Part shown: positions 18,625 to 21,644 of the stretch, piece by piece
Layout of the letters: each line of letters begins with the position of its first letter
Position numbering within the stretch: the stretch's first letter is position 1
Assembly: GCA_023262325.1 (NCBI GenBank)
Contig: JALRBS010000121.1
Coordinates: forward strand, 1 to 32,145
Direction of reading: 5' to 3'
Length of the DNA: 32,145 bases
Source: Ilumatobacteraceae bacterium
GTDB taxonomy: Bacteria > Actinomycetota > Acidimicrobiia > Acidimicrobiales > Ilumatobacteraceae
Made by a program: the position numbers and the translations under genes
Notes under the pieces: model-generated
Told to the model about the DNA's origin: nothing
What the model saw: the letters and a program-made list of their open reading frames with translations, nothing else
Database searches by the model: none

Positions 18625-20043
18625 TTACAGCAATTCGGCTGCGAGCGAGGCGACTCCCGACCGTTCACACGACTGGAGCGTGATGTGCCCGAAGCAGGAT
18701 TGACCCGTGAATGCACTGGTCAGAACGGCGAGCGCGTTGTTCGTCTCACCGAGATACGGTGCGTCGATCTGGCTCGTATCCCCGGTGAAGATGACCTTCG
18801 TGCCCTCTCCAACCCGGGTGAGAATGGTTCGCAACGTTGTCGGCTCAAGGTTCTGGGCCTCATCGATGACCACAATTTGTTCTTGAAGCGATCGACCTCG
18901 AAGGAATGTCACTGACTCGAGCGACAGTTTTTGACGCTCAGTGAGTTCGTCGATCAGGCGACGAGCGTCACCAGACGATCGGCGATCAGTAAGTGCAACG
19001 ACAGCATCGTGCACGGCCGACATCCACGGATCAAGCTTCTCGTCGAGTCCACCCGGCAGAAAGCCGACGTCGGCTCGACCAACCGGAACGAGCGGGCGGT
19101 AAATCGCTACTTTCTCGTACCGTTGCTCTTCGACGACCTGTTCAAGTGCCGCTGCGATGGCGAGAATTGTTTTTCCAGTGCCGGCTCGTCCATCAAGTGC
19201 TACGACGGTGACCTCAGGGTCCAGGAGCAGATCGATGGCGAATCGCTGCTCCTTGTTTCGAGGATGGAGTCCCCATGGTTGTGGGGTGGTGTGGCTGAGG
19301 AGTACGAACTCTGCATCGCGTCGTCGGGCAAGCGCCGACTGCGAGCCTGACCGAAGCACTGCGAACTCGTTCTCGCGCACTATTTCTGGCTTATCGACTG
19401 CGAATGCAAGCCCGATGCCCACCGGTGTCTCGTCGGATTGCGTGAGGACATCGTCAACGTCGACGACGCCATCGCGGTACAAGTCATCGATCGCGGCCGT
19501 ATCCGTATCGATGATGTGCCAGCCGGTCTGTCGAACTTCACGGGAGGCCTTGAGCGGTCGGTGTTCAATCGCGCTCAACCCGAGGTGTGCCGCCTTGATA
19601 CGCAGGGCCGCGTCGTTCGAAATCATCATCGTTGGTGCCTGGGTTGCCTGGCCGAGTGCGGCACCAATGATTCGGTTATCGGGTTTTGAGGCTTCAAGAC
19701 CGTGAGCCGCAAGAAGTTCGGTGTGCACACCGTTGACTTCGATGCGCAGCGATCCGGAGCCAAATGGAACGGCGGCGGCAAGCGAGCCGCCATGCTCAAG
19801 TCGAAGTTCTTCGATCGATCGAAGTGCAGTGCGAGCGGCTCGTCCGACGTCGTCGCTTCGGCTTTTGAGTCCGTCCAGTTCTTCAATGACGGTGAGTGGG
19901 ATGACGATGTCGACTTCGCCCATCGAGTGCAGGCAGTGCGGGTCTGCGATGAGTACTGATGTGTCGAGCACCACTCGGGTTCGTAGGAGATTGCCTTCAG
20001 CGTCGGTGACTGGCGTGACACCAGCGCGTGCAAGGTCGGTCAC
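18625..20043 (-). CDS. phoH2: PIN domain-PhoH ATPase fusion (PhoH2-type RNase/helicase)
   Basis: A 472-residue two-domain protein. Residues about 20-150 are a PIN nuclease domain (VVLDTSVLIADP with D27; VIEELDGL with E54/E55; D122 in KPDNRIIGAA; D144 in SNDAAL). Residues about 255-472 are a PhoH ATPase (Walker A GRAGTGKT at 285-292; Walker B IVVIDEAQNL near 390-399; FTGDTSQIDAPYL after it). PhoH2 proteins in mycobacteria are ATP-dependent RNA-unwinding ribonucleases paired with an upstream antitoxin-like gene, PhoAT. No convincing partner gene lies upstream here. The start is GTG 20043, preceded by AGGGGAGA, a good ribosome site. It is transcribed towards whiB and diverges from hup. Confidence 0.88.
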   Translation of the reverse strand: MTDLARAGVTPVTDAEGNLLRTRVVLDTSVLIADPHCLHSMGEVDIVIPLTVIEELDGLKSRSDDVGRAARTALRSIEELRLEHGGSLAAAVPFGSGSLRIEVNGVHTELLAAHGLEASKPDNRIIGAALGQATQAPTMMISNDAALRIKAAHLGLSAIEHRPLKASREVRQTGWHIIDTDTAAIDDLYRDGVVDVDDVLTQSDETPVGIGLAFAVDKPEIVRENEFAVLRSGSQSALARRRDAEFVLLSHTTPQPWGLHPRNKEQRFAIDLLLDPEVTVVALDGRAGTGKTILAIAAALEQVVEEQRYEKVAIYRPLVPVGRADVGFLPGGLDEKLDPWMSAVHDAVVALTDRRSSGDARRLIDELTERQKLSLESVTFLRGRSLQEQIVVIDEAQNLEPTTLRTILTRVGEGTKVIFTGDTSQIDAPYLGETNNALAVLTSAFTGQSCFGHITLQSCERSGVASLAAELL

Positions 20044-20090
20044 AGGTCTCCCCTCGTCGAGATCAGTGTTCGGAAGCGGTCGATCACGAT

Positions 20091-20114
20091 GTACAACGGG
20101 ACTAGTTGTACAAC
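20091..20114. repeat. GTACAAC / GTTGTAC triple half-site cluster
   Basis: GTACAAC at 20091-20097 and 20108-20114 are direct copies 17 bp apart. GTTGTAC at 20105-20111 is an inverted copy that overlaps the second to form the 10-bp palindrome GTTGTACAAC. It lies about 50 bp upstream of the phoH2 start, so it is likely a regulator-binding site for that gene. Confidence 0.5.
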
Positions 20115-20225
20115 GTGGGCCGCGCGAGGTGGTGGATAGAGCCGGCGAACTTCGGTGGATAACTCCTCAAGATTCCCTCGATGACGGGCGTACCCGTTGA
20201 TTGACAAAGCGGTCAGAGATTCTCA

Positions 20226-20255
20226 GTTGCAAATGCAACGACATGATTAGTTGCA
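20226..20255. repeat. GTTGCA palindrome plus third copy upstream of hup
   Basis: GTTGCA (20226-20231), AA, TGCAAC (20234-20239) form a perfect 6-bp inverted repeat; a further GTTGCA is at 20250-20255. It resembles the GTTGTAC half-sites nearer phoH2, differing mainly at one pyrimidine. Possible operator for hup. Confidence 0.4.
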
Positions 20256-20393
20256 CCAGTGTCATTTGCTTCATTTCGATGGTGTTGTTCCCGTTCAATC
20301 GATCAACTTGAAACATCATGTCGAAGGTCGATTCGAGTGGCCGGGAACCGGTGTGCAATCCCGCCCGCCGGCATCCCGAACCGAAGGACGAAC

Positions 20394-20666
20394 ATGACCA
20401 AGTCAGAACTCATCGACGCAGTGGCAAGCGCCGCTAACGTCTCGAAGGCAGACGCCGAGCGAACGATCGGCGCATTCTTCGACACCGTTGTCGCAGAGAC
20501 CAAAAAGGGTGACAAGGTCGCCTGGCCGGGCTTCGGCGCATTCAGTGTCACAAAGCGTCCCGCTCGCACTGGCCGCAACCCGCGGACCGGCGAGGCGGTA
20601 CAGATCAAGGCGTCGAAAGCAATGAAGTTCAGCGCCTCGTCAACCCTTAAGTCAACGCTTAACTGA
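20394..20666 (+). CDS. hup: HU-family nucleoid-associated DNA-binding protein
   Basis: A 90-residue HU protein, a homodimeric architectural DNA-binding protein. MTKSELIDAVASAANVSKAD is the N-terminal helical part. VAWPGFGAFSVTKRPARTG followed by RNPRTGEAVQI is the beta-arm with the intercalating proline in RNP. The C terminus ends at ASSTLKSTLN with no basic tail. This matters because many actinobacterial HupB proteins continue into a long K/A/P-rich tail, and here a peptide of exactly that composition is encoded separately 14 bp downstream. The start ATG 20394 has GAAGGA upstream; longer readings upstream in this frame are not HU-like. The gene has a long, repeat-rich upstream region and diverges from phoH2. 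Confidence 0.95.
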   Translation: MTKSELIDAVASAANVSKADAERTIGAFFDTVVAETKKGDKVAWPGFGAFSVTKRPARTGRNPRTGEAVQIKASKAMKFSASSTLKSTLN

Positions 20667-20680
20667 GAGAGAGTCAACAA

Positions 20681-20797
20681 ATGGCAGTGAAGAAAGCAGC
20701 TCCAAAGAAGGCTGCAAAGAAGGCTCCGGCCAAGAAGGCAGCAGCCAAGAAGGCAGCACCTAAGAAGGCTGCAAAGAAGGCTGCAAAGAAGCGCTGA
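20681..20797 (+). CDS. 38-residue lysine/alanine/proline-rich, histone-H1-tail-like peptide
   Basis: A short ORF reading MAVKKAAPKK and then further AAKK, APAKK, AAPKK units, ending AAKKR. It has eight KK pairs: 16 Lys and 1 Arg in 38 residues, with no acidic or aromatic residue. The composition matches the C-terminal tail of mycobacterial HupB and eukaryotic linker-histone tails, which bind and compact DNA. It starts 14 bp after the hup stop, has its own purine-rich ribosome site (GAGAGAG), and is in a different frame from hup. It ends 22 bp before a strong terminator, so it closes the hup transcript. The regular reading and position support a real gene. DNA binding is inferred from composition. 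Confidence 0.8.
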   Translation: MAVKKAAPKKAAKKAPAKKAAAKKAAPKKAAKKAAKKR

Positions 20798-20819
20798 GTC
20801 GCTTCACCAACACATTGTG

Positions 20820-20856
20820 GAACTGGCGGGGCCTAGGCCCCGCCAGTTCTGTTTTT
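20820..20856 (+). terminator. Strong intrinsic terminator of the hup operon
   Basis: Perfect 14-bp arms GAACTGGCGGGGCC (20820-20833) and GGCCCCGCCAGTTC (20836-20849), with TA between them, are followed by TG and TTTTT (20852-20856). It is the only textbook Rho-independent terminator found in the window. The U-tract is on the hup side only. Confidence 0.93.
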
Positions 20857-20873
20857 CGGTCACCTGTCGCACG

Positions 20874-21644
20874 TCACAGTTGTGACATGAGATGGAATGC
20901 CTCCCCGGCGGAAAACCCTGCTGGTGCCCCAATGTCGGCGAGACGTTGGTGCATGCGCTCGCGAAAAGCGGCGAGCCCATCGTCGTCTGTTGCTTTCATT
21001 GTTGACTCGAACTGGCTTTCATGAGCATCGAGGGCGTGGAGTTTGATGTCAACCGTTGCTTCGACGTCTTCAATGTGGTTCACCTCATCCGCCTCCCACA
21101 GAAGAAGGTGTAACGGCCGATGTGGATCGAGACCATGCTCGGGGTGAAAGTGCGGATCTCGTGCGGCGACAATCGCGTCGCACACCAGTCGACCAGTCTC
21201 GCGATGATCGGGATGCAGTCGGTAGCGCTTCCACGGGTCGTGCGAGAGCACCACGTCCGGTTTCACCGCGCGAATCACGCGTGCGATCTCGGACCTGCCG
21301 GGTATATCGGCGACAAGTTCGCCGTCGACACGCCCCAACCAGTGCACATCATTGGCACCGTGACCGCCAAGGCGAATGTGTGCCTCGACCTGTTCACGAG
21401 AGCGGCGAGCGACGAGCGCGGCTGTGTCCGCCGTCGGATCCCAGGTGCCTTTCGAACCGTCCGTGAGAACGAGGTGGTGAATTTCGCAGCCTGCTTGGGC
21501 CCACTTGGCGAGCGTGCCACCCGCACCAAACTCAATGTCGTCGGGGTGGGCGCCAATTGCAAGCGCGATGCGCGGCACCGCAAGATTCGTTGATATCGAA
21601 CCAGCGGCGGTGACTGGTGGCTGCCCGGGGTCATTTGCATTCAT
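20874..21644 (-). CDS. PIG-L (LmbE-like) family deacetylase
   Basis: A 256-residue zinc-dependent N-acetylglucosaminyl-type deacetylase. The metal motif ALAIGAHPDDIEFGAGGTLA is near residue 30 and the third ligand region is YRLHPDHRETGRLVCDA. LVLTDGSKGTWDP and RSREQVEAHIRLGG are family features. Actinobacterial members include MshB and Mca of the mycothiol system, but many others are unassigned; at 256 residues this is shorter than usual MshB. It could act on a glycoside precursor or conjugate. ATG 21644 overlaps the cofC stop by 4 bp (ATGA), so it is translationally coupled to an F420 gene. It faces the hup terminator at its 3' end. Confidence 0.85.
   Translation of the reverse strand: MNANDPGQPPVTAAGSISTNLAVPRIALAIGAHPDDIEFGAGGTLAKWAQAGCEIHHLVLTDGSKGTWDPTADTAALVARRSREQVEAHIRLGGHGANDVHWLGRVDGELVADIPGRSEIARVIRAVKPDVVLSHDPWKRYRLHPDHRETGRLVCDAIVAARDPHFHPEHGLDPHRPLHLLLWEADEVNHIEDVEATVDIKLHALDAHESQFESTMKATDDDGLAAFRERMHQRLADIGAPAGFSAGEAFHLMSQL

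Follow-up and report, generated by a model that had tools for sequence, protein, structure and literature searches.

The closest described relatives of the locus presented here are the HU proteins HupB of mycobacteria and HupS of Streptomyces, in which an HU core is extended by a fused basic tail of the PAKKA type, rich in lysine, alanine and proline and with many KK doublets. In the available part of PMC5676037, the fused lysine-rich tail of HupB is needed for DNA and nucleoid binding in vivo in M. smegmatis, where tail-free HupB is dispersed and mobile; fused tails are thus described as stabilising HU on DNA. The tail of HupS, according to the portion available of PMC11229371, has many KK doublets and is acetylated. 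Two other groups of proteins carry lysine-rich sequence as well: actinobacterial TopA, whose C-terminal domain carries lysine repeats that help the enzyme to hold DNA (PMC5676037; see also PMC7398561), and the stand-alone lysine/alanine-rich basic proteins known as histone H1-like HC2 (PF07382) and Burkholderia H1-like (NF038053). For the class Acidimicrobiia, the accessible portion of PMC5683647 assigns only HU of the clade HU_acti_0, and describes the clade's Streptomyces member as lacking an extension at the C-terminus.

The window is a stretch of 32,145 nucleotides from an Ilumatobacteraceae genome (G000), and it carries what resemble the two parts of a HupB/HupS-like protein as two cistrons (Table 1). 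The hup product matches the Pfam model Bac_DNA_binding over its full length (residues 1-90 of 90), which places it in the HU/IHF family. It ends in LN-stop at residue 90 and the tail is out of frame, so that the HU polypeptide in the window has no lysine-rich tail of its own. Instead, the PAKKA-type sequence, with KKAPAKKAAAKK, lies in a separate open reading frame (ORF) with its own start, and this frame is open right to its stop. The peptide is composed of 16 K, 16 A, 3 P, 1 M, 1 V and 1 R, and contains eight KK pairs. Whereas the HupB and HupS tails are fused to HU and the TopA repeats to an enzyme, the tail in the window would be a free peptide; compared with HC2 and NF038053 proteins, it differs in its conserved linkage to hup.

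Table 1. Features of the hup locus in the window
Feature	Position	Strand	Support
hup, HU core of 90 aa without tail	20394..20666	+	PF00216, 109.8 bits (cut-off 22.4)
Spacer of 14 nt, purine-rich GAGAGAG at 20667-20673	20667..20680	+	sequence
Predicted detached HU-tail gene, 38 aa, MAVKK...AAKKR	20681..20797	+	conserved ORF, pN/pS, gap pattern
Intrinsic terminator 3' of the tail gene	20817..20858	+	16-pair stem, then T run
PIG-L deacetylase gene, convergent, syntenic marker of the hup locus	20874..21644	-	PF02585, 89.6 bits
PIN-PhoH ATPase gene, divergent, upstream of hup	18625..20043	-	Pfam PhoH 149.7 bits, PIN_4 93.2 bits

An earlier note, made from the window alone, had described an HU without a tail, a separate K/A/P peptide in another frame, a purine-rich ribosome site proper to it and a strong terminator behind it, and each of these elements was recovered. 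The GAGAGAG motif lies 7 nt 5' of the ATG. The terminator hairpin has a folding energy of -30.8 kcal/mol (z -4.4 against shuffles); the bare number of terminator-like hits, one, equals the shuffled mean of 1.0 and is unremarkable. A motif scan of positions 20044-20900 gave no sigma-70-like promoter, and since it was blank even upstream of hup, it says little on operon structure. As for the upstream neighbour, a PIN-PhoH gene precedes HU in 27 of the 94 family loci, many of which have short upstream flanks only.

The conservation of the tail ORF was surveyed in 221 genomes of the family, among which 193 had an HU match and 94, the window included, had their locus read. A K/A/P-rich ORF follows HU in 86 of these 94 loci; four have none, and in four others less than 150 nt of contig is left. 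Among the latter, G160 begins like a tail ORF, G204 has a tail-like beginning that gives way to dissimilar sequence with a stop close to where the contig ends, and the contigs of G013 and G016 extend 0 and 9 nt further. These counts leave out L064, where no HU was found, L131-L210, and L065-L070, L218, L286 and L294, which repeat genomes or places already counted. In the window's own genus, the ORF is present at 11 of the 12 other loci read, and the contig of the twelfth ends at the HU stop; the absence from close relatives that the earlier note had named as a refutation is thus not borne out. The four loci that have a tailless HU and PIG-L and no tail ORF (L015, L019, L032 and L076, from G019, G021, G034 and G138), out of 90 with enough downstream DNA, indicate that HU does not need a tail gene next to it. 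Two of these genomes, G019 (L304) and G034 (L309), have K/A-rich ORFs away from hup, which may encode tail peptides unlinked to it or H1-like proteins of another kind.

In the 86 loci the ORF starts 2-67 nt past the HU stop, with ATG (58), GTG (27) or TTG (1) as the start codon chosen by the script. Its frame relative to that of HU is distributed 25/33/28 over the three possibilities, and because it varies in this way, a sequencing error or frameshift as the cause of the split was rejected; the single-base error that the earlier note had named as a way of fusing the ORF to hup is excluded likewise. That note also requires correction on two points: the arrangement extends across the family and reaches past the order, and the 38 aa of the window version lie near the lower limit of a range of 20-170 aa (median 82, n=65 complete family ORFs; contig ends truncate some of the 86). 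Such a range implies that neither a fixed dose nor a fixed structure has been conserved. In several relatives the contig breaks off within the repeat of the tail ORF, and the window ORF contains a 21-nt exact repeat, so that some loss of repeat units in assembly is possible. The tail ORF is also present in the single-contig genomes G027 (4,830,181 bases), G033 and G145.

Selection on the ORF was estimated from frame-blind nucleotide alignments of pairs whose HU proteins are 85% or more identical; the pairs share ancestry and are non-independent. In the ORF's own frame pN/pS was 0.235, with 172 of 172 pairs below 1, whereas the two other frames gave 1.2 (54 of 162 pairs below 1) and 2.1 (13 of 148). 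All 244 internal gaps in these frame-blind alignments were multiples of three. A protein-guided variant of the alignment gave a pN/pS of 0.238, with 170 of 170 pairs below 1. At the level of sequence, these comparisons show purifying selection acting in the frame of the tail ORF. When 75 family ORFs were compared with themselves, the best repeat lag was always a multiple of three, and mismatches at codon positions 1, 2 and 3 numbered 1231, 965 and 1849. Across the family and same-order ORFs, lysine is encoded by AAG in 2485 of 2664 cases, and all four alanine codons are freely used. The 64 complete family peptides are 42% A, 41% K and 10% P, with one acidic residue in 5172. One of the Shine-Dalgarno-like words GGAG, GAGG and AGGA is found ahead of 49 of the 114 ORFs, compared with 128 of 1780 downstream positions picked at random (7%); the GAGAGAG of the window contains none of the three.

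The K/A/P-rich ORF call is specific to HU ends. Within the window it follows a single ORF end out of 114; the best 30-aa stretch reaches a K/A/P fraction of 1.00 at the tail ORF against 0.57 elsewhere. In the fetched loci, the call was made after 112 of 199 HU-ORF ends and after 20 of 2296 other ORF ends; 11 of these 20 are exact matches to an HU-adjacent ORF, and the other nine, reached from overlapping frames, read as the same ORF (7) or as HU itself (2). A chance ORF was rejected on this specificity in the window and fetched loci, together with pN/pS and the gap pattern. Judged on these comparisons, the 38-aa ORF is a real gene.

The arrangement was also looked for outside the family. Among 45 loci of the same class outside the order, 25 combine a tailless HU with a separate K/R/A/P ORF behind it, four have a fused tail and 16 have neither; in the 24 called first, the ORF starts 46-95 nt on, often as (V)TVPPAK. 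Among 38 loci of the same order outside the family, five have a fused tail together with a separate ORF, seven have a fused tail and 26 have neither. At L035, L036, L040, L043 and L045, from same-order families, the separate K/A/P ORF comes directly after the fused HU tail. A wider ORF search over the 88 loci first scored as none or fused changed two of them, L221 to detached and L040 to both. Outside the class, in the best-scoring 23 loci from a draw of 100 genomes, no separate ORF was found and the tail was fused in two. A contig scan yielded at least five loci with the arrangement (L131-L135) among the 80 listed; L146, a sixth locus called loosely and at a distance of 154 nt, does not resemble it in sequence.

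A convergent PIG-L gene is common to the window and many loci outside its family and order. Of the 172 scored loci that have 1 kb or more of downstream sequence, 74 carry this gene, and at these 74 the tail is detached in 62, both detached and fused in five, fused in three and lacking in four; 70 of the 74 thus have a tail in one form or the other. The likeness to the fused tails of HupB and HupS, which had been proposed from the window alone, gains support from these fused and double forms at PIG-L-linked loci. At the 98 loci without PIG-L, which may be other HU paralogues, the tail is absent from 61, detached in 23 and fused in 14. A tree of 139 HU cores over 90 columns has few supported forks, and its columns are too few to give the direction of fission or fusion; it took 28 of the 94 family rows, picked by hand, dropped identical cores and those below 80 aa, and carried L040 as both and L221 as none. 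On this tree the PIG-L label changes 17 times, compared with about 40 in shuffles. The simplest reading would be a single ancestral hup locus to which the tail belongs and at which it has been fused, detached or doubled.

We consider it likely that the product of the 38-aa gene is an HU tail supplied in trans, which compacts DNA together with HU. We infer one transcript for both genes, DNA binding by the peptide, its cooperation with HU and control of the ratio of core to tail. hup and the tail gene would be carried on a single transcript ending at the terminator 3' of the tail gene, and ribosomes would translate HU and then re-initiate, or start afresh, at the tail cistron, which lies 14 nt further downstream. 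The peptide, nearly all K and A and predicted from its composition to be disordered, would bind the DNA backbone without sequence specificity. In trans, it would do the job of the fused PAKKA tail in HupB and HupS, that is, stabilise HU on DNA and compact the nucleoid. That the tail is fused in some lineages and separate but adjacent in others supports a function shared with HU. Adjacent genes may be co-expressed without acting together; the strongest indirect support for a common function is that these two parts are fused at this locus in other lineages. The interpretation in the earlier note is partly supported, and it is the separately translated peptide resembling an HU tail that the data bear out. 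More broadly, we lean towards the view that much of the Acidimicrobiia has a split HU system, in which a tailless HU and a co-encoded free lysine-rich tail act in trans, with a core-to-tail ratio that could be set by translation and with the tail fused, detached or doubled at one ancestral hup locus.

The combination of an HU core with a fused lysine-rich tail is already known, and the tail as its own adjacent gene would be a variant of it. No description of a separate HU tail gene was found in the open-licence PMC literature, which excludes preprints and was represented mostly by titles and the beginnings of abstracts. The locus amounts to a separation of core and tail carried out by nature: at one and the same place, many species encode the two independently, others have them fused, and a few have both forms. 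This makes it possible to test whether the tail has to be attached to HU, whether it acts in trans and whether its dose is tuned by cells. It also adds a small-protein gene whose short versions could fall to a length filter.

Among the alternatives, the one that survives best, although unlikely, is that the peptide is a histone H1-like compaction protein in its own right, carried on the hup transcript and acting neither on nor with HU. Its composition is H1-like, and a 130-aa relative scores 28.4 bits against PF07382 (cut-off 40; E 2.2e-6) and 34.2 bits against NF038053 (cut-off 80), both below the curated cut-offs; the window peptide itself, at 10.1 and 14.2 bits, falls below both and outside the H1-like families so defined. 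The five same-order loci with a fused tail as well as a separate ORF, and the K/A-rich ORFs that some family genomes have at places other than hup (e.g., L304, L309), would also fit such a protein. However, adjacency to HU holds inside and outside the order, and the tail is fused to HU at the PIG-L-linked locus in other lineages. It is distinctly improbable that the peptide is a general basic peptide whose ligand is not chromosomal DNA but, for instance, ribosomal RNA or a different polyanion: it is very basic, almost without acidic residues, and K/A/P stretches are found on other proteins of these genomes too, but its linkage to hup is conserved at the loci read. Synthesis of HU and tail in a single polypeptide, through frameshifting or read-through of the stop, or their separation by a sequence error, would agree with the adjacency and with the fused forms of other lineages, but can be given almost no weight in view of the three relative frames, the variable family spacers, the ORFs' own start codons and the SD-like sites. 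A neutral low-complexity repeat or assembly artefact, to which the contigs ending in the repeat and the 21-nt exact repeat might point, is extremely unlikely, being contradicted by pN/pS and the gap pattern in the first case and by the ORF's presence in three single-contig genomes in the second.

The proposed trans-encoded tail can also be viewed against the other HU genes of the family. The HU search returned one match each in G000, where it is hup itself, and in G027, G033 and G145, which leaves the detached peptide as the sole HU-linked tail found in these genomes; K/A repeats do occur at other places in G027 and G033. A second HU (HU2) carries a fused tail at all six loci read (L048, L052, L053, L055, L056 and L059), which belong to other genera of the family and have 38-45% identity to the window HU; with the thresholds applied, the window's genus yielded no HU2. 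Counted from the match listing, the only HU match is weaker than 1e-20 in 27 of the 193 matched family genomes, and in G036 (97%-complete), the one read among these 27, HU is of the fused-tail HU2 type; this speaks against the detached tail being universal in the family.

K/A/P stretches were also encountered in other proteins. A 167-aa protein of G000 (L211:1062-1562, contig C123) begins with KKAVPAKKAAPAKKA; it matched no Pfam family at 1e-3, and the region after KKAVPAKKAAPAKKA is DksA/TraR-like by eye. In L305 and L310, the K/A/P stretches lie inside larger proteins with IRVHELAKELGMTNAETV in common near their start, a sequence that reads like that of a translation factor.
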